Notes under the pieces: model-generated | What the model was told of the DNA's origin: nothing | Database searches by the model: none | What the model saw: only the letters and a program-made list of their open reading frames with translations | Position numbers and translations under genes: made by a program | Shown here: positions 44,951 to 54,663 of the stretch, one piece after another | Layout: each line of letters starts with the position of its first letter | Numbering within the stretch: position 1 is the stretch's first letter | DNA from: Prevotella sp. | GTDB taxonomy: Bacteria; Bacteroidota; Bacteroidia; Bacteroidales; Bacteroidaceae | DNA: 54,663 nt | Direction of reading: 5' to 3' | NCBI GenBank assembly: GCA_017474925.1 | Contig: JAFVGN010000048.1 | Coordinates: 1 to 54,663 of the forward strand

Positions 44951-47404
44951 TTAACGCAACTCAACGCCAAGCTTCTGCTTCAGGTTGTTGATGAGTTTCT
45001 GCATGATGGCGTCAATCTGCTTGTCGCCCATGGTCTTCTCGGCATCCTGCAGTATGAAGTTCACCGCGTAGCTCTTCTTGCCGGCAGGCAGTTTCTCACC
45101 TTCATAGACGTCAAACAGCTCCACTTTCTTCAGCAGTTTCTTCTCCGTCTGACGGGCAATCTCCTCAATCTGGGCAAACTCCACATGCTTGTCAATGAGC
45201 AAGGCCAGGTCACGGCTCACTGCCGGATACTTGGCAATCTCGCTGAACTCAACCTTCTGCTTGCGGATAACCTTCATCAGGGCTGTCCAGTTCAGTTCTG
45301 CATAGTAGACCGTCATGTCGATGCCTGCCTGCTTCTGCACCTTCTTCGACAGGATGCCCAGCTCGGCCAGCAGCTTGCCACCACGGTTCTCGATGGTCAG
45401 TCCCGATACAAAGACGGGATTCTCCGACTTCTTTCTCACCAGCATGCCTGGTTGCACTCCGATACGTGCCAGGATATTGTCCACATAGGCATCCAACTCG
45501 GCAAACGAGGTCTGCTCGTCAGGATGCGCCCAAGAGCCCTCCACGCGCTTGCCTGTCAGCCACAGTCCCATGTGATACTGCTCCTGATAGGCCTGCATGG
45601 GGTCGTCGTCGTTCTGCTTCTCAGGCGAGAAGCGGTATACGTTGCCAAACTCGAAGAAGCGGCAGTTTCCGTTCTTGCGGTTGGCATTATAGGCTATGCT
45701 CTCCAGTCCGCCATACAGCAGCGTACCACGCATCACGTTCAGGTCGCTCGACAGGGGGTTCATGATGTGTACCAGCTGCTTGTCCTGTTCCTCGTCGTAG
45801 TAGGCAGCCTTTGTCAGCGAGTTGTTCAGTATCTCGTTGAAGCCGGCACCAACCAGCTGCTCACTCACCAGATTGGCCAGCTTATGCTTCTGGTCCTCCT
45901 CGCCCTTGATCACCAGACTGGATTTCAGCTGCGAGGGAATCTCCACATTATTATATCCATAGATACGCAGGATGTCCTCCACCACGTCGCACGGACGGGT
46001 CACGTCCACGCGATAGCCCGGAACCTCTATCTGCAGGCCGGAAGCACTTTCTTCCAGCACCTTCATCTCCAGCGATTCCAGGATGCTCTTGATGGTCTCG
46101 GCAGGAATCTCCTTGCCTATCAGCTGGTTGACATAGGCATAGTCCAGTGTCACCTTCTGATTCTCCATCTTCTCAGGATACACATCCTTGATGTCCATCG
46201 ACACCTTGCCGCCAGCCAGTTCCTTGCACAGCAAGGCGGCATACTTCAGCGCCTCAATGGTGCCGTTGGGATCAACGCCACGCTCGAATCGGAACGAAGC
46301 ATCGGTGCTCAATCCATGACGGCGTGCCGACTTACGTATCCATGTCGGATGGAAGTAAGCACTCTCCAGCACAACGTTCCTGGTGGTCTCATAGGTACCA
46401 CTACCCTTTCCACCGAAGACACCGGCAATACACATGGCCTCCTCTGCGTTGCAGATGGCCAAGTCGCGGTCAGAGAGTTTGTGCTCCACACCGTCCAGCG
46501 TCTGGAAGGGGGTACCCTCCGGCAAGGTCTTCACCACAATCTTGTGACCCTTCACCATGTCCGCATCGAAACAGTGCAAAGGTTGTCCCAGCGCCATCAT
46601 GACGTAGTTCGTAATGTCCACGATATTGTTGATGGGGCGTAATCCTATCACGGTCAGTTTTTCCTTCAGCCATTCTGGCGACTCCTTCACCTCGCAGTCG
46701 GTGATGCTCACACAGGCATAGCGGCGGCAAGCCTCCGTATTCTCAATCACCACGTCGATGGGCAGCGAGTGGTCGTCAACGGCAAACGCCGATACACTTG
46801 GCTTGTGGGTAGCCGTCTTGTAGCCGTTCTGCTTCAACCAGGCATACAAGTCGCGTGCCACTCCCCAGTGCGACAGGGCGTCGGCACGGTTGGCCGTAAT
46901 GTCCACCTCGATAAGCCAGTCGCTCTCCAGATGATAGTATTCAGCGGCAGGCGTACCCACCACAGCATCCTCAGGCAGGACAATGATGCCCGAGTGGTCG
47001 TTGCCGATGCCTATCTCGTCTTCGGCACATATCATGCCCAGCGACTCCACACCACGCAACTTAGACTTCTTGATAACAAACTCCTTGTCACCATCATAGA
47101 GCACACACCCCAGGTCGGCAACGATAACCTTCTGACCGGCAGCAACGTTGGGCGCACCGCATACAATCTGCTGAGCATCGCCCTTGCCAAGGTCCACGGT
47201 GGTTACATGCAGGTGATCTGAGTCCGGGTGGTTCTCACAAGTCAGCACCTTACCCACGTAAAGTCCCTTCAGACCGCCCTTGATACTCTGTACTTCCTCG
47301 AGTGCGTCAACCTCCAGACCTGTCGACGTCAGCGCGTCGCATACCTGTTGCGGTGTCAGGTCGAAATCCACGTACTCCTTTAGCCATTTATACGATATAT
47401 TCAT
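44951..47404 (-). CDS. pheT: Phenylalanyl-tRNA synthetase beta subunit
   Basis: The 817-residue subunit has an N-terminal tRNA-binding domain (VLTCENHPDSDHLHVTTVDL at about 46-65), B1/B5 modules and a B3/4 editing domain (VDITNYVMMALGQPLHCFDA at about 260-279). A catalytic-like core follows, then a C-terminal ferredoxin-fold anticodon-binding domain (KYPAVSRDLALLIDKHVEFA at about 720-739). The ATG at 47404 is used because the promoter lies at 47438-47468, downstream of an earlier in-frame start at 47467. A 647-codon plus-strand frame (44699-46642) is an antisense shadow. Confidence 0.97.
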   Translation of the reverse strand: MNISYKWLKEYVDFDLTPQQVCDALTSTGLEVDALEEVQSIKGGLKGLYVGKVLTCENHPDSDHLHVTTVDLGKGDAQQIVCGAPNVAAGQKVIVADLGCVLYDGDKEFVIKKSKLRGVESLGMICAEDEIGIGNDHSGIIVLPEDAVVGTPAAEYYHLESDWLIEVDITANRADALSHWGVARDLYAWLKQNGYKTATHKPSVSAFAVDDHSLPIDVVIENTEACRRYACVSITDCEVKESPEWLKEKLTVIGLRPINNIVDITNYVMMALGQPLHCFDADMVKGHKIVVKTLPEGTPFQTLDGVEHKLSDRDLAICNAEEAMCIAGVFGGKGSGTYETTRNVVLESAYFHPTWIRKSARRHGLSTDASFRFERGVDPNGTIEALKYAALLCKELAGGKVSMDIKDVYPEKMENQKVTLDYAYVNQLIGKEIPAETIKSILESLEMKVLEESASGLQIEVPGYRVDVTRPCDVVEDILRIYGYNNVEIPSQLKSSLVIKGEEDQKHKLANLVSEQLVGAGFNEILNNSLTKAAYYDEEQDKQLVHIMNPLSSDLNVMRGTLLYGGLESIAYNANRKNGNCRFFEFGNVYRFSPEKQNDDDPMQAYQEQYHMGLWLTGKRVEGSWAHPDEQTSFAELDAYVDNILARIGVQPGMLVRKKSENPVFVSGLTIENRGGKLLAELGILSKKVQKQAGIDMTVYYAELNWTALMKVIRKQKVEFSEIAKYPAVSRDLALLIDKHVEFAQIEEIARQTEKKLLKKVELFDVYEGEKLPAGKKSYAVNFILQDAEKTMGDKQIDAIMQKLINNLKQKLGVELR

Positions 47405-47437
47405 TGCAATGATTTTATTAATTTCCGAAAATCCGTG

Positions 47438-47468
47438 CAAAGGTACGAAAAAGTGAGCACAATACAAA
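47438..47468 (-). promoter_or_regulatory. pheT-yebC promoter (TTTG, 19 bases, TACCTTTG)
   Basis: On the minus strand TTTG (47468-47465) and TACCTTTG (47445-47438) are 19 bases apart, and the -7 box ends 33 bases before the ATG at 47404. Confidence 0.75.
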
Positions 47469-47564
47469 ATAAAAACACCTTTTTATATTCTTTTGGCTGA
47501 CTAACGCCCACTTCCGAATCACTTCGCTATCCACTCCGATGGTGTCTGTCACCTAAAAAGGAAA

Positions 47565-47598
47565 AAGCACCCTCATGTTGTATGGCATGAGAGTGCTT
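47565..47598. terminator. Hairpin downstream of the DUF3987 gene, next to a TAGGAAAG repeat
   Basis: AAGCACCCTCATG (47565-47577) pairs with CATGAGAGTGCTT (47586-47598) with one mismatch. An A-run lies on the left side, so it can end leftward transcription of the accessory operon. Its right arm runs into repeat copy A. Confidence 0.7.
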
Positions 47599-47628
47599 AA
47601 TGTCCACTTTCCTACTTTCCTACTTTCC
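47594..47628 (+). repeat. TAGGAAAG-type repeat, copy A (single arm)
   Basis: The 35 bases start TGCTTAATGTCCAC and continue with tandem TTTCCTAC units. They are identical to the start of copy C at 53808 and are in the same orientation. The DUF3987 stop codon lies 5 bases to the right. Copies A and C thus bracket the whole accessory module. Confidence 0.85.
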
Positions 47629-47632
47629 GCAT

Positions 47633-49576
47633 TTATATGGTCGGAAGTTCGGAAACCAGTTTCTTGTAGTGACCGCGCATGGTACGCTCAATGGCTTTGT
47701 CATCCTCCAGACGTTGCAGCGTCTTCTGTCCTGCGCGAGTGTTTGCATAGCCGAATACCTGTGCAAACTTCTCGGTGGTGAATTCGTCTGGCAACAGACG
47801 GAAACAGTCTTGGTACTTCGTCGTGCGGCGACGCTGCTGTGCGGCATCACGCAGTTGGTCATCGTAGTATTTACGGTGCAGTTCGTAATACCAGAAGATT
47901 TGTGTGCGGTACTGGATGTCAAGTACTAAATCGCAAAGCGCAAGGTCTTGAGCGTCAATGGTATAGGTGCCGGTCTGCTCGCGCTCTTCCCAATGTCGCA
48001 TGTCGATATAGGGTACGCTGATTGAGATACCATAGTATGGAACGCGCTTGATAAGCAGCCAGTCGGCCTTGTCCCTATCGTTGAACTCGGCAATGGCACG
48101 GCGGTCGTCACACCACTGGTGAACGTGCTCCACAAGAGGCCAGATGGGTAATTCGCCACGACGCTGATCCAGGCGGTATGCCCACTGTTTGAGCGTCTCA
48201 TTATACTCAGCAGTCTTAGAGTCCTCCTTGCGGCGCAACGGCATCATCTTGAAATCGTCCTCACCCATTGGGATGGTTGCAGTACGTGTGTCAAGACCAG
48301 AATTGACCGAGCGCTCGTTCACAAGTTTGGTGAGTGTGGGCGGTGTAAAGGTCTCCACCATGTTCCAAAAGACGCGATAACGGCCACTTACCGACTGTTT
48401 GTTGGAATAGTGCTGATCATCGTACTCCCCGTGGAAACTAAGAAGCAGCATATTACTGCGTGATATCCAGCTGCCAGCCTTGCCTATTTCGAGGTCTTTC
48501 TCAGACGACACGGTTACCATGTGGCGTCCCATCATCTCACCATCCACTTCCTCCTTGCAGTTGATCATGCTACGTATGAACTCAGAGTTTGACGAGCGAT
48601 AGCCAAACAAGCGGTTAAAAATCGCTGGTCTAAGATCTTTCTCCTTGTTGGCACCCTTGGCATCAGTACTCTCTTTCCAAGTGTTGGTGCTCTCGTCGGC
48701 TATCTCGCCCTCGGCAATGATGGGAGCCAGCAGCAGGTTCATCAAACGCTCTAACGAGTGTTTGCCCGACGTCGGGTCACCCACGCCCCAGATGATGTAA
48801 TTCAAGCGCATGCGCTCACTTTCAGAGGCATAGAAATAATAATACGTCAAATCCATGCACGTGCCCATCATGGCTGCCGATGCAAAGAGCAGGAAAGGCC
48901 ACAAACGGCGTGGATGGGGTTCGCATACCTCACGAAGACAGGGGTGCACATCGAAGAAACCTTCTATCTGCTCGCACCAACGGTCAAAAGGCAGAACAGA
49001 CAGCGGATTGGCATTCTTCGTAGTTGCCGTAGACTGTTCCAAGTTGATGCCAGCCTTATCCATCAGCTCTTTCAGCGCCTTGGGATAGCGCGTCAGCAGT
49101 TTCTTCTTGGCAGCCGACTGGCACAGGTCTTCCACTTCGCCTGGGTTGGGGTTCCAATCCTTCACCCAGTCAAGGCGACGGGCCATAGCGATGGCTTTCT
49201 GCGGGTCGTTGTCGTTGTAGTAGCACAGCCAGTGAGAAGTCTCAGTCTGCATGCGGTCGTGCTTCGTGTGAGGAGGCAGACTTGGTCCATAGTGCTCGTT
49301 GAGCACCTTGATAAATGCCTCGTCCTCTGGCGAGAACTCCACTGGCGTTTCTACCTGTGGTGTAACTGCAGGCATAATAGTAGCAGGCATAGTCGATTCA
49401 GAGGTAGCGTCGGTAGAAGCCTTTGCTTTAGCCTTCTCCTCGCGCTTTTTCGCTTTCAGCTGTTTGTCATACGCATCCCACTTGGGGTCTGTGGGCGTAG
49501 AGTCGCCCTTGGGCAGCTGGCGATAACGGTCGCCCTGCTGCAAGTCATAATCGGTTCTTATAATACTTTCTTCCAT
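47633..49576 (-). CDS. DUF3987-type (VirE-like) helicase/primase-associated protein
   Basis: The 647-residue protein resembles the DUF3987 ATPases that accompany primase-like proteins on Bacteroidales mobile elements. An N-terminal charged linker (about 35-60, lysine and alanine rich) and a small helical domain (about 80-180) precede the ATPase. A Walker A-like loop GVGDPTSGKHSLERLM is at about 264-279; the residue after the lysine is His, where Ser or Thr is usual, though Ser follows. The ATG at 49576 is used in preference to a TTG one codon upstream. It follows the BT4734-like gene by 12 bases, so the two form a primase-helicase pair. It may have a replication or defence role; this is inference. 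Confidence 0.8.
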   Translation of the reverse strand: MEESIIRTDYDLQQGDRYRQLPKGDSTPTDPKWDAYDKQLKAKKREEKAKAKASTDATSESTMPATIMPAVTPQVETPVEFSPEDEAFIKVLNEHYGPSLPPHTKHDRMQTETSHWLCYYNDNDPQKAIAMARRLDWVKDWNPNPGEVEDLCQSAAKKKLLTRYPKALKELMDKAGINLEQSTATTKNANPLSVLPFDRWCEQIEGFFDVHPCLREVCEPHPRRLWPFLLFASAAMMGTCMDLTYYYFYASESERMRLNYIIWGVGDPTSGKHSLERLMNLLLAPIIAEGEIADESTNTWKESTDAKGANKEKDLRPAIFNRLFGYRSSNSEFIRSMINCKEEVDGEMMGRHMVTVSSEKDLEIGKAGSWISRSNMLLLSFHGEYDDQHYSNKQSVSGRYRVFWNMVETFTPPTLTKLVNERSVNSGLDTRTATIPMGEDDFKMMPLRRKEDSKTAEYNETLKQWAYRLDQRRGELPIWPLVEHVHQWCDDRRAIAEFNDRDKADWLLIKRVPYYGISISVPYIDMRHWEEREQTGTYTIDAQDLALCDLVLDIQYRTQIFWYYELHRKYYDDQLRDAAQQRRRTTKYQDCFRLLPDEFTTEKFAQVFGYANTRAGQKTLQRLEDDKAIERTMRGHYKKLVSELPTI

Positions 49577-49588
49577 CAATGATACGTT

Positions 49589-50218
49589 TTAGCGGTTAAA
49601 CAATTCTTTCTCATCGCAATAGAGCACGTCGTCTGGTGTGGTCAAAAAGCTCAGGCGATTTGAGTCACGGCAGCCATCGTCTACCCACTGCAACACACCC
49701 AGACGCTCGGCCATCTGCCACTGCTGGCAAATCAGGTTGTGAGGATATTCAGGGTCTGCCTTGAACACAATCTTCATGCCGTCTTCCGATGCCGACACAT
49801 AAACCAGCAGAATGCCCAGAGCCTTGAAGTCGTGTTCCTGCTGCAGGCGCACAAACAATTCACGTGGGTCACCGCAATGGTCCACATCGATGACAACAAG
49901 CCCGGAGAGGTAGGCATAGCGCATGTCGCGCCAACGACCAGCCTTTCCGTAGTTGTACTTCTTCTTCGGGTCGTCGCCTATGCTCACGGCAAAGTCGGAG
50001 GCTTGAAAGCAGGCACCAGGCAGCGTACGCTTCACGGCATCAGCAGCCTGTTTGGCTTTCTTACGGGCTGCCTCGTCGGTCTGCAGCTTAGCATTAGCCA
50101 GCATCTGGCGGTACTTCATCACGATATCCTTGGCTGTCTGCATGGCTTGCTGCCACTCTTCCCAGCCCATCTGCTGCATTTCGTAGAAGGTACGAACTTG
50201 ATAGGTGATCTTAAACAT
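49589..50218 (-). CDS. BT4734/VirE N-terminal-like primase-fold protein
   Basis: The 209-residue protein matches the BT4734/BF3469 type: an N-terminal helical region rich in Lys and Gln (about 15-65), then a core that recalls archaeo-eukaryotic primases. That core has an acidic pair LVVIDVDHCGDP (Asp about 111 and 113), YVSASEDGMKIVFKA (about 140-154) and DSNRLSFLTTPDDVLY (about 185-200). The ATG at 50218 overlaps the upstream stop (TGATG). Whether it primes DNA is unproven, because the usual catalytic histidine is replaced here (SEDGMK). It works with the DUF3987 protein encoded 12 bases downstream. Confidence 0.75.
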   Translation of the reverse strand: MFKITYQVRTFYEMQQMGWEEWQQAMQTAKDIVMKYRQMLANAKLQTDEAARKKAKQAADAVKRTLPGACFQASDFAVSIGDDPKKKYNYGKAGRWRDMRYAYLSGLVVIDVDHCGDPRELFVRLQQEHDFKALGILLVYVSASEDGMKIVFKADPEYPHNLICQQWQMAERLGVLQWVDDGCRDSNRLSFLTTPDDVLYCDEKELFNR

Positions 50219-50724
50219 CACTTGGTTCCTCCATTTTTAAAGTGGTTGATAACTTTGTTGAAGCGCTCACTCGCGGGCAGACGGCGCACTACCAGCTGCA
50301 CCTGACGCAACACCTCGGCTTGCCAGTCGCGGCTGTGACGTGAGAGGTCGATTTTGCCTGTGAAGGTCACCTCGTTCTTCTCCTCGTCGAGCCAGCACTC
50401 CAGTCCCTGTTCCTTCACCACGCGCAAGCTGTCGGGCTGCGTTATGGGTTTCTTGGGTTTCAGGTCTTTGGTCAATGCGTTAAACTGACTGACGAAGTCG
50501 GCATACTGGTCGGCAGAACTCTCCTTGCTTTTCAGACTGATCATCTTCGAAGGGTCAGAGCCTATTGTCACCCAGCGCTTGCCACCTCCGGCACAAGTCT
50601 TGACTGCCGATTGCGTGCTTGGTGCGTCGTTGAACGGCGTGAAGCCGAACTCGTTGGTCGCGGGGTCTATCGTTGCCGTGCCGCGAACCTTGATTTTCTT
50701 GGTTTTCGTATTCTTATAATCCAT
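50218..50724 (-). CDS. Hypothetical protein upstream of the primase-like gene
   Basis: The 168-residue protein is basic at its start (MDYKNTKTKKIKVRG). It has a short beta-rich N-terminal half (GTATIDPATNEFGFTPFND; RWVTIGSDPSKMISLK) and an amphipathic C-terminal half (FTGKIDLSRHSRDWQAEVLR; LVVRRLPASERFNKVINHFK). I do not recognise its family. Its stop overlaps the start of the primase-like gene (TGATG), so it belongs to that transcript. A start at 50820 in the same frame would add 32 residues of atypical sequence and is less likely. Confidence 0.65.
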   Translation of the reverse strand: MDYKNTKTKKIKVRGTATIDPATNEFGFTPFNDAPSTQSAVKTCAGGGKRWVTIGSDPSKMISLKSKESSADQYADFVSQFNALTKDLKPKKPITQPDSLRVVKEQGLECWLDEEKNEVTFTGKIDLSRHSRDWQAEVLRQVQLVVRRLPASERFNKVINHFKNGGTK

Positions 50725-50929
50725 TTTGTAAATCTTTGATGAATGAATAAGGAGAAGCCTGCCTTGGCGCCTTACGGCAGACCCCGTTTCCTTTGTAATA
50801 CCGTCGTCCTTTAGCGACATTAGAGGGTTAATGAATGAATGAAGAATGTGAGACGCGTCTCGATGCTCATGTCCTTATAGTGCACATAGAACAAAAAGCA
50901 CCGCCTCGGGATTAAATCCTTTGACAGTG

Positions 50930-50937
50930 CAAAGATA
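50930..50937 (-). promoter_or_regulatory. -7 promoter element (TATCTTTG) for the primase-like operon
   Basis: TATCTTTG on the minus strand fits the consensus and lies about 205 bases before the start at 50724. No -33 box is seen at the right distance. The leader between is long for this genome. Confidence 0.35.
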
Positions 50938-50963
50938 CTCAGAATTTGAGTGGTATTTTTAGG

Positions 50964-51023
50964 TCATTGGGGATTGGCCTATGAATTGGGGAAACGTTTG
51001 GGATTTTCCCCAATCCCCAATGA
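50964..51023. repeat. 60-base nested palindrome after the unknown gene
   Basis: A perfect 14-base inverted repeat, TCATTGGGGATTGG (50964-50977) and CCAATCCCCAATGA (51010-51023), encloses a second left arm ATTGGGGAAA (about 50984-50993) that can pair with TTTCCCCAAT. Two hairpins therefore compete for the same right arm. No T-run follows on either strand, so it is not a standard terminator. Confidence 0.8.
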
Positions 51024-51025
51024 AA

Positions 51026-52186
51026 CTATCTGTTGGGGCCTTTAACGATAATATCACCAAATTTAAAAATATTCTCCATCCGCTTACAATGAAGATGGAT
51101 ACGTATAAAGCCTTCTTTCTTTTGATTTTTGTTGTTAGGCGTCCAATTAGAAGGCAGTTTACCATCACTCGAGACCCACTGAACATAATCAAATTTGTCG
51201 TTGCGGAAGAAACCTGTCTGATAGGTTGCTACCTGGTCATAGCTGCATGTCTGTCTGGTGTATTCTTCACCAAACCACCCTAACATTTGCCCACAGAACT
51301 TATTGGTTGCTTGTTCCTTTAGCAAACGGTGAGCTGTAGCAAACAGCAGCAATGCTAGCCATTCATATTTTGCAGAAAGATGACAAACGAGATTTTCATA
51401 TATCCAATACCAAAATTTCTCCAAATCTATGGTGTCGCCATAGTCATTGGTTTCACGAAAGATTTTATTGGATAGACCTTGAGGGCATACAATTTCCTTG
51501 GTTGGGGGATTATCGGTGTTGTGGTTTCCTTCATTCTCCCCTGTTAGAGGCTCTATGGTCTTTGTTGCCTTGCTCTTTACAAACTCTATGTAGGCATCTG
51601 CCGTACTGATGATTTGTGCATGTTCACTTTCTTCCAAAAAAGGTAGTAAATGCTGTAGGGAGAACTCGATTTTCTCCAGTTCTTGGCGAAGGTGGACACC
51701 GTTGGCAAATTCATCCTCAAGATTGACATTAAATGTGTATGCATCTCTCATCTTTCGTTCTTTGGCATAGAAAACCTTTTCCATTTCATAGTATGCCTCG
51801 AACATGGCAGGATAGTCTCTGTCTGCGAGGTCTACCTTTACAAAGCGTGCAATGATACCTTTTGCCACCAAGGGGCATCGCATCCACAATTCCGATAAAC
51901 CAGGATAACACTCTGACTCTCGAACCATGTCTATTTCGCTACTAACAAAATACAAGGAATCACGGTGTCCTAAATCGCGACCTCCTTCTTTTACGAATAA
52001 CGAATTACCCTCGCTGTCTACATCGTCTGACAACTCATACAAATCAACAATTGCTCCTTTGACTCCGTTTTTCCACTCGCGTACACTATACATATACAAA
52101 TTGGTGCCATTGACACAGCGTCCAATATCGGATATACTTGCATCCGATAGCAATTCGTCATCTATGGGGGATAGTACTCTTCTCAC
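51026..52186 (-). CDS. Unrecognised 386-residue protein next to the RAYT
   Basis: I do not recognise a family. The protein is soluble, acidic at the N-terminus (LSPIDDELLSDASISDIGR), and has a helical, charged middle (DYPAMFEAYYEMEKVFYAKE; VHLRQELEKIEFSLQHLLPF). A linker with NHNTDNPPTKE follows, and then a compact C-terminal part rich in aromatics (LEKFWYWIYENLVCHLSAKY; FCGQMLGWFGEEYTRQTCSY). No signal peptide or membrane helix is seen. It starts at a GTG 5 bases after the transposase stop, so it is probably translated from the same message. The first ATG is only at residue 32. Its position between a transposase and a primase/helicase pair suggests a role in that module, but no function can be read. 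Confidence 0.7.
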   Translation of the reverse strand: MRRVLSPIDDELLSDASISDIGRCVNGTNLYMYSVREWKNGVKGAIVDLYELSDDVDSEGNSLFVKEGGRDLGHRDSLYFVSSEIDMVRESECYPGLSELWMRCPLVAKGIIARFVKVDLADRDYPAMFEAYYEMEKVFYAKERKMRDAYTFNVNLEDEFANGVHLRQELEKIEFSLQHLLPFLEESEHAQIISTADAYIEFVKSKATKTIEPLTGENEGNHNTDNPPTKEIVCPQGLSNKIFRETNDYGDTIDLEKFWYWIYENLVCHLSAKYEWLALLLFATAHRLLKEQATNKFCGQMLGWFGEEYTRQTCSYDQVATYQTGFFRNDKFDYVQWVSSDGKLPSNWTPNNKNQKKEGFIRIHLHCKRMENIFKFGDIIVKGPNR

Positions 52187-52191
52187 AATAA

Positions 52192-53463
52192 TTATCTTGT
52201 TGCGTTAATTATCTTTGCTTCACCATTGAAAGTACATATCTCAGCTGCCAGCGTGTTGAGATTGTGAAAGCGACTGTAGTCACTGTCAGACGGTACATTG
52301 CCGACATCACCCATCGTGTCGAGATCCCAAGGAGCCAATATGAGCAAAGCTCCCTTTACACAAGCCTCAAAACGCTTTTTCTCGGGCTTCCAGTACAGGC
52401 CTATGGGTGTCGCCTGCAGATGTATCAGCGGATAGCCCCGCTCTATGCACTCATTTTTCATCAGTTGTTCACCGCGAGATATACCTGGCGTGACTATGAC
52501 GGTAGCGCCCTCCATGACGGCTGCCGCCCACTGGCTTCGCTCACGGTCGTAGTCGTCAGTTTCCTCATAAGGACGGTGACTCACCGGGTGGCTACGGTGG
52601 CACATCACCTGCAGCTTACGAGGCCACCTCAGAAGGAATAGGTTTCCGAATGCGCCATAGCTACGACCACCTATCTGTACATGCAGACATCTGCGCAAGT
52701 AGTCGGGCAGAAGCCGCCTCAACAGAGCACGGCGAGGGTTGTCATGCACATAAGCTATCATCGCTTGGCGGTGGCGCTCGTCAAGGCACACCGTGTCGTC
52801 GTAGTTGTCATCGAAGAGAGGGCGCTGCTGGCGTCCCACGAATGTGTAGTACTCTTGTCGCTGCTTCTTTGACATGCTACGTATCAGGGCCCCTTCGTTA
52901 TAGTGAAGGGCAGCCTTCTCGCGCAGCCAGGCAGGTGCACCATCGCTCATGCAATCGGCCGATATCGGTCGATTGGTGGAGGACGGAAGCCCCTGTTGCT
53001 GCTGCCAACTACTGGTACAGGAAGCCTTGAAGGCCTGGATGATATCGCCCAAACTCCACTGCATGGGTTCCAGTACTTCGATAACACCGTGGAAATGGTC
53101 AGGCATACATACGCACGCATGGACCACTACTTTGTTGCCATGAGTTTGCGAGCGGATGGGCGTCTGTAGCCATACTTCTTGCACCGCCTCGCCAAGAGGT
53201 GTGAGGGCAAGTGTGGCGGTGGCTTTGTGGCCGGTCTCACCTTTCTGGCCGGTCTCACCTTTGTGACCGGTCTCACCTTTGTGGCCGGTCTCACCTTTGT
53301 GGCCAGTCTCGCTTTTGTGGCCGGTCTCGCTTTTGTGACCGTTCTCGGTCGCAAAATGCGCTAGCAGCTGTTCACGGCCACTCACCACAAGGGTGATGAG
53401 ATACGTACCGCGACCGTAGTAGTCGTGGCCTGCATTACGTGGACGATAGGATAATACCTCCAT
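52192..53463 (-). CDS. REP-associated tyrosine transposase (RAYT, Y1/HUH) with repeat insert and Rossmann-like tail
   Basis: The 423-residue protein is a Y1_Tnp transposase. The first strand is GTYLITLVVSGREQLLAHF (about 19-37) and the HUH motif is in CMPDHFHGVIEV (His at about 123 and 125). The candidate nucleophile tyrosine is near NYDDTVCLDE (about 220-229), before AMIAYVHDNPRRALLRRLLP. Between strand 1 and the HUH strand lies a run of six to seven GHK(S/G)ET hexapeptides (about 41-81), encoded by 18-base tandem repeats. The C-terminal 110 residues (GATVIVTPGISRGEQLMKNE; GALLILAPWD; FHNLNTLAAEIC) look like a DprA/SLOG-type Rossmann domain. ATG 53463 is chosen because a full promoter lies just upstream. 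Confidence 0.85.
   Translation of the reverse strand: MEVLSYRPRNAGHDYYGRGTYLITLVVSGREQLLAHFATENGHKSETGHKSETGHKGETGHKGETGHKGETGQKGETGHKATATLALTPLGEAVQEVWLQTPIRSQTHGNKVVVHACVCMPDHFHGVIEVLEPMQWSLGDIIQAFKASCTSSWQQQQGLPSSTNRPISADCMSDGAPAWLREKAALHYNEGALIRSMSKKQRQEYYTFVGRQQRPLFDDNYDDTVCLDERHRQAMIAYVHDNPRRALLRRLLPDYLRRCLHVQIGGRSYGAFGNLFLLRWPRKLQVMCHRSHPVSHRPYEETDDYDRERSQWAAAVMEGATVIVTPGISRGEQLMKNECIERGYPLIHLQATPIGLYWKPEKKRFEACVKGALLILAPWDLDTMGDVGNVPSDSDYSRFHNLNTLAAEICTFNGEAKIINATR
53227..53352 (-). repeat. Seven 18-base tandem repeats inside the transposase gene
   Basis: Seven 18-base units, GTGGCCGGTCTCACCTTT on the plus strand with small changes, start at 53227, 53245, 53263, 53281, 53299, 53317 and 53335. 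They are in frame and encode the hexapeptide GHK(S/G)ET. The last unit is the most diverged. The number of units can change without shifting the frame. Confidence 0.95.
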
Positions 53464-53500
53464 ATTTTTTACGATTCCATTCTCCCCCCCAAACCGAGGG

Positions 53501-53532
53501 CAAATATACAAAGAATAATTGAAGAACCCAAA
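53501..53532 (-). promoter_or_regulatory. RAYT promoter (TTTG, 20 bases, TATATTTG)
   Basis: On the minus strand TTTG (53532-53529) and TATATTTG (53508-53501) are 20 bases apart, a full match. The -7 box ends 37 bases before the ATG at 53463. Repeat copy B begins 12 bases upstream of the -33 box. Confidence 0.75.
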
Positions 53533-53544
53533 TAAAAAGGGCAA

Positions 53545-53583
53545 AAAGTAGGAAAGTAGGAAAGTAGGAAAGTGGACATTAAG
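53545..53583 (-). repeat. TAGGAAAG-type repeat, copy B (left arm of 39-base inverted repeat)
   Basis: The 39 bases are tandem AAAGTAGG units followed by AAAGTGGACATTAAG. They are the exact reverse complement of 53810-53848, with 226 bases between the arms. GTAG, the tetranucleotide known to be read by the E. coli RAYT at the foot of REP hairpins, occurs three times. Confidence 0.95.
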
Positions 53584-53809
53584 GTATTTCTAAGGGAGAT
53601 AATATAGCGTAGAATATAAATTGAGTAAGATTATTTATATAGAGTAGAATTTAAATAGATCAAGATAATAATGGTAGTAATAAAAATATTGATAAAGATT
53701 ATAATGGCAGTAATAATAATATTAATAATTGTATAATAATAGTATAATAATAAGTATTTTTAAAAAAACTTCTACTTATAATGTCTCTCTTCCGCACTCC
53801 GGGAAAATG
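53584..53809. other. AT-rich core between the inverted repeats, no gene
   Basis: The core is almost entirely A and T. It holds degenerate direct repeats of about 45 bases (GTAGAATATAAAT..AAGAT, GTAGAATTTAAATAGATCAAG, AAGATTATAATGGCAGTAAT). No convincing gene lies in it. The short plus-strand frame from 53729 runs through the repeat and is not supported. It is the kind of DNA that unwinds easily. Confidence 0.8.
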
Positions 53810-53862
53810 CTTAATGTCCACTTTCCTACTTTCCTACTTTCCTACTTTCCTACTTTCCGTCT
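53808..53862 (+). repeat. TAGGAAAG-type repeat, copy C (right arm, longest)
   Basis: TGCTTAATGTCCAC is followed by five CTTTCCTA-type units and ends TTTCCGTC. Bases 53810-53848 are the exact reverse complement of copy B. The first 35 bases equal copy A, 6.2 kb to the left and in the same direction. Unit number differs between copies (three in A, about four in B, five in C). Confidence 0.95.
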
Positions 53863-53922
53863 TTCTATTACCATGAATCTCCGACCGGCAAATCTGGGTC
53901 TTTCAACACAGGGGGGAAAAAC

Positions 53923-54010
53923 GAGCCGTAATGTCGTGGAGCGCGAGCCGTAATCTCATCGATGGTGAGCCATAATCTCACTATCGACGAGCCGTAATCT
54001 CGCCAAAAAC
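53923..54010 (+). repeat. Four 22-base direct repeats (iteron-like)
   Basis: Four units start at 53923, 53945, 53967 and 53989, exactly 22 bases apart. The conserved half is GAGCCGTAATCTC (with GTC in unit 1 and CATAA in unit 3) and the other 9 bases vary. The conserved part has GAG and CTC ends. In unit 3 the flanks extend this to a 27-base hairpin (53960-53986) with 10-base arms and one G-T pair. Two helical turns per unit would place bound proteins on one face of the DNA. Confidence 0.9.
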
Positions 54011-54102
54011 GGGGTGTCAGGAGGGTGGACTCCGTAGTGGATTCTATCTTTAACTTTTACTTTAACGATTAACATTTATTAGCCTAAAAAACAGGGAAAT
54101 AA

Positions 54103-54134
54103 TTTGCATAGTTCGAAAATATTTCGTACCTTTG
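54103..54134 (+). promoter_or_regulatory. HU-like gene promoter (TTTG, 20 bases, TACCTTTG)
   Basis: TTTG (54103-54106) and TACCTTTG (54127-54134) are 20 bases apart. The leader to the ATG is 61 bases and holds a small hairpin CAGGA-GGG-TCCTG (54148-54160). The 22-base repeats end about 93 bases upstream of the -33 box. Confidence 0.78.
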
Positions 54135-54195
54135 TATCGTTAAAAGGCAGGAGGGTCCTGACCTGGATTAAGTGTAACTTTAATAAACTAAAATC

Positions 54196-54663
54196 ATGAG
54201 TAAGATTCTTTACGAAGTTTACCAGAACGACATCAAGGACTCGGAGTCCGTGATGTATGGGAAGTGGTACGCACGACTGAAGAGCATCGAGACGCTGAGT
54301 ATCGAAAAGCTGGCCAAGCACATCGCTGAGCACGGAAGTGTCTTCACGGCAGATGTCGTGGAGGGTGTGATGAAGAAGTTCAAGAGCTGTCTGCTCGAGA
54401 TGCTGCTGGAGTCGAAGAAGGTCAAGGTGGCCGGCCTGGGTACGTTCTACCTGACCTGCGAGTGCACCAAGGGCGGTGCCGACAAGGAGTCGGAGTTCAA
54501 CGTGAACCAGCACCTGAAGGCACTGCACATCCGCTTCCTGCCCGACCAGACGGCAGAGGACAACATCTCAAGCCGTGAGTTCATCAAGAAGGCCGAGTTC
54601 GTCAACATCAAGAGCCTGCTGTCAGGCAAGGACGACGAGGAAAACGGCACTGAGAACGAGGAT
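54196..54663 (+). CDS. HU-like DNA-binding protein, partial (3' end off window)
   Basis: The first 156 residues of a Bacteroidetes HU-like protein are present: YEVYQNDIKDSESVMYGKWY (about 6-25) is the family's N-terminal extension. The HU fold follows (IEKLAKHIAEHGSVFTADVV at about 37-56; KVKVAGLGTFYLTCECTKGG at about 79-98) and then HIRFLPDQT. The last part is a charged tail (SGKDDEENGTENED) and the stop lies beyond the window. Such proteins bind DNA with little sequence preference and often sit beside BT4734/DUF3987 genes. It may or may not recognise the 22-base repeats upstream. Confidence 0.88.
   Translation, partial: MSKILYEVYQNDIKDSESVMYGKWYARLKSIETLSIEKLAKHIAEHGSVFTADVVEGVMKKFKSCLLEMLLESKKVKVAGLGTFYLTCECTKGGADKESEFNVNQHLKALHIRFLPDQTAEDNISSREFIKKAEFVNIKSLLSGKDDEENGTENED

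Follow-up and report, generated by a model that had tools for sequence, protein, structure and literature searches.

An inverted pair of 8-base arrays in Prevotella looks more like a site for a nearby-encoded DNA-copying enzyme than a target of the neighbouring transposase

Which enzyme, if any, is served by a long perfect inverted repeat that lies directly in front of a transposase gene? We pursued this question in a 54,663-nucleotide stretch of Prevotella DNA (hereafter the window), in which an inverted pair of short tandem arrays turns its R end towards a RAYT-like Y1 transposase gene and its L end towards the gene for an HU-HIG DNA-binding protein (Table 1). The initial annotation had taken the pair for a non-autonomous mobile element or the substrate of the neighbouring transposase; based on sequence comparisons across the genus, the repeat family looks to us more like a site for C0, the putative primase-helicase encoded in the same module.

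The two arms of the pair are exact reverse complements over 39 of 39 nucleotides, with 226 nucleotides between them, and the match extends beyond this perfect stretch to give 46-nucleotide arms at 93%. Among inverted repeats with arms at most 600 bases apart, the pair (53545-53848) is the longest perfect one in the window, the next unrelated one measuring 18 nucleotides, and as the best perfect repeat in 40 dinucleotide shuffles reached only 14 nucleotides, the perfect 39-base repeat around an AT-rich core, as first reported, is confirmed and lies beyond chance. Each arm is built of 8-base tandem units (GGAAAGTA, read on the arm strand) with GGACATTAAG at its end, and contains GTAG three times. 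The core has a GC content of 21.7%, against 49.6% for the whole window, and tandem direct repeats are found beside an AT-rich tract, the arrangement by which iteron-type origins are recognized. Folded alone, the two arms and the one single array that we checked gave no stable fold, in keeping with the earlier remark that the structure is unlike known REP hairpins, and an Rfam scan of 47000-54663 returned no match at gathering thresholds. Two further elements had been overlooked in the initial annotation: directly past the C0 stop codon lies an array of the same kind, and contig C65 of the same genome carries a second full pair (77% identity over a 401-base query), which adjoins a DUF4160 gene and no RAYT. 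The copy number in the source genome is two pairs and one single array, in an assembly that is 63.65% complete.

Table 1. Features of the C0 module and the adjoining inverted pair, in window coordinates
Positions	Strand	Feature	Evidence or remark
47565..47598	-	Terminator-like hairpin behind the terminal array	13 pairs, then a T run
47594..47628	-	Single terminal array, immediately past the C0 stop codon	
47633..49579	-	C0, second part: P-loop ATPase, presumed helicase	GDPTSGK at residue 267
49589..50221	-	C0, first part: BT4734-like_N primase domain	Pfam E 5e-8; VVIDVDH at residue 109
50218..50820	-	C1, recurring partner gene of C0	No convincing family
51026..52186	-	Cargo gene, cluster C14	No assigned function
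52192..53463	-	RAYT-like Y1 transposase gene, read as cargo	DHFH, YVHDNP; listed ORF extends to 53544
53501..53532	-	Promoter before the RAYT gene, taken to be of Bacteroidetes type	TTTG-N20-TATATTTG; 12 bases outside the R arm
53545..53583	+	R-end arm, tandem GGAAAGTA units then GGACATTAAG	Inverted-repeat and array searches
53584..53809	.	AT-rich core, candidate melting region	21.7% GC; L-side subterminal block AGAGAGACATTATAAGTAGAAG
53810..53848	-	L-end arm, exact reverse complement of the R-end arm	Array continues to about 53859
53922..54009	.	22-base tandem repeats, L side of the pair	GAGCCGTAATCTC
54103..54134	+	Promoter before the HU gene, taken to be of Bacteroidetes type	TTTG-N20-TACCTTTG; about 250 bases outside the L arm
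54196..54663	+	HU-HIG DNA-binding protein gene, recurring neighbour	E 5e-17; runs off the window

Searches beyond the window indicated that the arm is not confined to this locus. A 20-base arm pattern allowing one mismatch is present in 36 of 299 genomes of the same genus, as against 3 for the reversed control pattern; these counts overlook variant arms (those of G034, G295, G145 and G287) and are not independent, the genomes being mostly drafts with short contigs from related species. In a collection with named entries, an exact 25-base pattern occurs in 17 stretches titled Prevotella or Prevotellaceae and, in one case, Bacteroidaceae, whose isolate names include RUG (which we take to denote rumen), Goat_Abomasum, Sheep_Abomasum and Red_deer. 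Forty genomes from 40 other families, with at most six candidates scored in each, yielded no arm match, the AT-rich core being at most what matched. In IMG/VR one contig (L152) carries the arm, by eye as a pair, adjoining an HU gene. In searches of the literature accessible to us, largely without subscription journals, we recognized no description of this repeat. The suggestion of a non-autonomous mobile element, made on the window alone, is accordingly upheld in the sense of a dispersed, non-coding and probably mobile repeat.

The 50 loci that we fetched contain 33 inward pairs and 29 single arrays, often as 8-base tandem arrays around an AT-rich core that measures 5 and 20 bases in two of the pairs and 98 to 392 in the remainder; the pair at L126 stands outside the 33, as one arm missed the pattern, and was recovered by a sequence-blind inverted-repeat search. 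After removal of pairs with cores under 60 bases (L059, L119) and of ambiguous ones (L062, L117), the 29 oriented pairs display a subterminal block around AGAGACATTATAAGTAGAAG at the L end and GGTATTTT at the R end, where the L consensus arises partly by construction because the fit to the L motif had served to set the orientation (8 of 27 pairs differ by just one or two mismatches). Just outside the L end, the window, L097, L109 and L152 additionally display tandem repeats of 21-22 bases with differing sequences (GAGCCGTAATCTC and others). In the set of 27 pairs left for flank periodicity, from which L124 and L134 were also removed for short flanks, a score of at least 27 for 22-base repeats was reached by 9 of 27 L sides and 5 of 27 R sides, against 0 of 135 L-side shuffles; we regard these periodic repeats next to the pairs as suggestive only.

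The gene that recurs with the arrays is C0 (47633-50221), which combines a BT4734-like primase with a P-loop ATPase and is split into two ORFs in the window, and likewise in L108 and L126. Pfam returned nothing for the ATPase part, even with E allowed to reach 10; ATPases of the DUF3987 type joined to primases are predicted helicases according to PMC5862659. A structure search found no solved relative of the family. The relatives at L111 and L250 gave a weak signal for a winged helix at the C-terminus (AbiEi- and MarR-like), which was not seen in the window protein. C0-like genes were detected in 97 of the 299 genomes (E up to 1e-30; with three candidates scored per genome, misses are likely), while no relative was matched in phage and plasmid collections or recovered from IMG/VR by a two-motif scan. 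In the portion of the literature accessible to us, we noticed no DNA site named for BT4734 or VirE N-terminal proteins.

Clustering of ORFs brought out a recurring layout, in which the pair is followed by cargo, C1, C0 and a single array immediately after the C0 stop, with a terminator hairpin next in the window; here an initiator candidate with a primase and a predicted helicase activity is encoded in the module with an array at its 3' end. The cargo varies and includes a RAYT (window, G287), an M15 peptidase, HepT-like and nucleotidyltransferase genes, and a DndB/DpdB-like gene. At L109 the same layout surrounds a single gene that matches a zinc ribbon and, weakly, 23S-IVP. HU was considered as a constant partner and set aside as a neighbour, as it lies near the L end at some loci and behind C0 at others.

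Homologues of C0 scoring above 1000 bits have a recognizable array within 60 bases past the stop in 15 of 15 cases, a count biased by the arm having led us to 11 of these loci; at the four close loci not reached via a nearby arm (G122, G295, G145, G287) the array is present in all, clear in three and weaker in G295. The homologue next in score (G213) has an array 54 bases after the stop, behind a hairpin, and the C0 of G123 has none after its stop. Strong 8-base periodicity was observed in 17 of 32 distinct C0 tails (42 loci less ten whose tail was unusable or a duplicate) as against 9 of 389 tails of other genes (p 1.5e-15), two of the latter nine holding GGAAAGTA arms. Among distant C0 tails, none of them reached via the arm, 8 of 17 are strongly periodic against the same 9 of 389 (p 3e-8, the rows being related), and their units differ in sequence, ACTTACCC, TATTTCAT and CGCCGTAT among them, from which it appears that the period is kept rather than the sequence. 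Strongly 8-base periodic tails without a GGAAAGTA arm were observed behind seven genes outside the C0 cluster (in L049, L095, L104, L109, L118, L123 and L133).

A sequence-blind search for inverted repeats with arms 80-450 apart and a core under 36% GC recovered a pair in 8 of 11 close C0 loci having at least 7 kb before the stop, at 5.0 to 7.8 kb before it; among the close loci with room that were not reached via the arm (L244, L245, L246) only L246 has one, L098 likewise has none, and a matching pair was found in 0 of 7 distant C0 loci, one of which offers only 5.8 kb. The search also returned unrelated low-score repeats in L098 and L253. The independently found L246 module (G287) uses a private AGAAATGC-type unit in the array behind C0 and again in the pair. 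Across eight modules the terminal array matches its own pair better than in shuffled assignments (p 0.0017), the matching being partial in that the own array is best or tied in just 4 of the 8. C0 falls within the fetched stretch for only 6 of the 33 pairs, many stretches being short. At the level of genomes, C0 is present in 32 of 36 arm carriers and 65 of 263 others, and with the close-C0 genomes left out it is still present in 21 of 25 arm genomes against 61 of 259 others; the link then runs via distant C0 genes whose arrays differ, and is therefore due at least in part to lineage.

Based on this anatomy and recurrence we propose that the arms are iteron-like binding arrays for C0, and that the inverted pair around its AT-rich core is an origin-like site, a reading to which we give a probability of about 0.42, held at reduced odds because most close loci were reached through the arm itself. 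Along the direction of C0, the module would read L arm, AT-rich core, R arm, promoter, cargo (RAYT and C14), C1, C0, single array and terminator. C0 would bind the 8-base units on both sides of the core, melt the core and then prime there, and we infer that replication might start at the pair in this way; stand-alone pairs without C0 would be origin-only copies that have spread or persisted. A wider version, which we hold to be doubtful, is that each Prevotella BT4734-type primase-helicase gene might carry a private 8-base array past its stop, its sequence replaced between lineages and its period kept, and that in one clade the iterons might also form an inverted, AT-cored origin several kilobases away, which would since have detached itself and be spreading as a parasite that consists of the origin alone and is copied in trans.

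The nearest parallels are found among initiators with downstream origins. SaPI and SCCmec elements share with the present family short tandem units immediately 3' of the gene for the initiator helicase, and the joint encoding of a primase and a helicase (here a predicted one); in SCCmec the repeats are bound by the C-terminal domain of the helicase (PMC7581432). The present family is set apart by a further copy of the array, inverted and with an AT core, 5-8 kb upstream of the C0 stop, by a primase of the BT4734 family, and by the occurrence of copies without the initiator. The pRN1-type origin similarly lies just downstream of its primase-helicase gene, which encodes a C-terminal winged helix (PMC4234260), but it is a stem-loop without iterons, whereas here there are arrays and the winged helix is weakly detected, in relatives. 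If the arrays are C0 origins, a little-studied gene family would gain a testable substrate, and the pairs would offer Prevotella a candidate replicon small enough to clone; with its constant 8-base period and shifting sequence, the system would also be a tractable case of an initiator and its site evolving together.

The alternative that fares best, which we nevertheless consider unlikely, is that the pairs are MITEs, i.e. short non-autonomous transposons whose terminal inverted repeats are cut by some transposase, with the C0 modules merely carrying copies. The pairs are indeed short, non-coding and AT-rich, have inverted ends and are found at several unrelated sites; those at L120 and L123 are about 90% alike over some 210-220 bases, the likeness ending near the arm edges in loci that otherwise differ. 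When the flanks of seven pair loci were compared with the 299 genomes (two candidates scored per genome, so that misses are likely) and 42 loci were then compared, both flanks were recovered in another genome in three cases, with the pair in one (L120 in G289) and without it in two (L122 in G140, L123 in G289), the latter being the kind of site for which the initial annotation had proposed to look. In G140 about 95 bases are left unaligned between the flanks, where L122 has about 520, and there is no clean duplication; in G289 the filler between the flanks of L123 differs. We conclude that the pairs likely arose at their sites by insertion. Against a MITE stand the fact that no target duplication was seen, although at the single close empty site the edges could not be aligned with base precision, the failure to notice a parental transposon among the clustered neighbours, the low copy number of two pairs in this incomplete genome, and the array after the C0 stop, which a MITE would leave unexplained. 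BrickBuilt of Porphyromonas gingivalis is comparable as an intergenic Bacteroidales repeat with tandem units and inverted ends, but it has a 23-base central minisatellite and IS5-like ends (PMC4596501), whereas here the ends are 8-base arrays and the core is AT-rich. We also considered the single array and the pair as ends of one 6-kb transposon (47594 to 53848), and rejected this, since in the proteins that we scanned we noticed neither an integrase nor a transposase that would match.

Could the arrays instead be operators, placed in the divergent region that separates the HU gene from a RAYT-C0 operon, with one more where that operon ends? Promoters, which we take to be of Bacteroidetes type, do lie outside both arms and face away from the pair; yet stand-alone pairs also occur between convergent genes (L122, L123), and we deem such a regulatory role quite unlikely.

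We likewise regard it as very unlikely that the pair is a REPIN-like unit acted upon by the RAYT, although we raised these odds slightly because of the arm-based selection bias and the enrichment of the close RAYT type described below. The features that the initial annotation had pointed to, GTAG in the arms and an adjacent RAYT, are both real: a RAYT faces the arm in the window, at L246 (G287) and at L054, where a more distant RAYT faces an array; the C65 pair beside its DUF4160 gene departs from this pattern. The proposal that the pair is the substrate of its neighbour is not supported. Of ten close RAYT orthologues, only those of the window and G287 have a pair within 520 bases in front; among the eight without it, one (L257) has a lone two-mismatch arm fragment in front, and the remaining seven have no arm within the fetched 12-13 kb. 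The RAYT is read here as cargo of the module, mainly because of these orthologues.

Co-occurrence across genomes, from lists compiled by hand on two occasions with identical counts, gives a mixed picture. RAYT-like genes, defined by matches to the model NF047646 in 198 of the 299 genomes, occur in 35 of 36 arm genomes as against 163 of 263 others (p 3e-6, a crude co-occurrence), and the 36th, G006, has a weaker match to the window RAYT protein. Among C0 genomes, RAYT is not associated with the arm (31 of 32 arm genomes against 56 of 65 others, p 0.16), while among RAYT genomes C0 is (31 of 35 against 56 of 163, p 2.5e-9). Close orthologues of the window RAYT, at 580 bits or more, are present in 17 genomes, 6 of which carry the arm as against 30 of 282 others (p 0.009); including the variant arms of G145 and G287 raises the number to 8 of 17 (p 0.0003). 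Hence the anticipated link between arm and RAYT type is present as an enrichment of the close type, but RAYT adds nothing among C0 genomes. The closest RAYT-linked parallel, compared by description, is subclass 2.6 of Bacteroidetes, in which a RAYT lies beside an atypical repeat copied elsewhere in the genome and whose REPs are also said to lack the GT[AG]G-at-hairpin-foot feature (PMC6006769); unlike REPs and REPINs, the arms studied here contain GTAG without folding alone, are of low copy number, and are absent before most of the orthologous RAYT genes. That the pair is an invertible promoter flanked by recombination sites, as perfect inverted repeats around a short non-coding core might suggest, is scarcely credible given a single orientation at each of the two loci common to several genomes (L120/L133; L101/L134/L114).

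The RAYT gene itself shows several features of its own. The ORF 52192-53544 matches NF047646 at E 2e-11 and 44 bits, where the curated cut-off is 80; judging by its orthologues, the gene seems to begin at the ATG at 53463. Six tandem 18-base repeats at 53205-53348, in the RAYT reading frame, encode a GETGHK-type collagen-like stretch (Pfam Collagen E 1e-5, under the cut-off), and a long C-terminal extension (52192-52600), common to the close orthologues and with no family match, is by eye reminiscent of a nucleotide-binding fold. Elsewhere, around positions 7800-8450 of L132, copies of a ACAGGGGGACAGGCACGGTGTGAGG repeat in both orientations surround a stretch that resembles by eye a Y1-transposase gene, an arrangement that to the eye is of the more usual REP-like kind.
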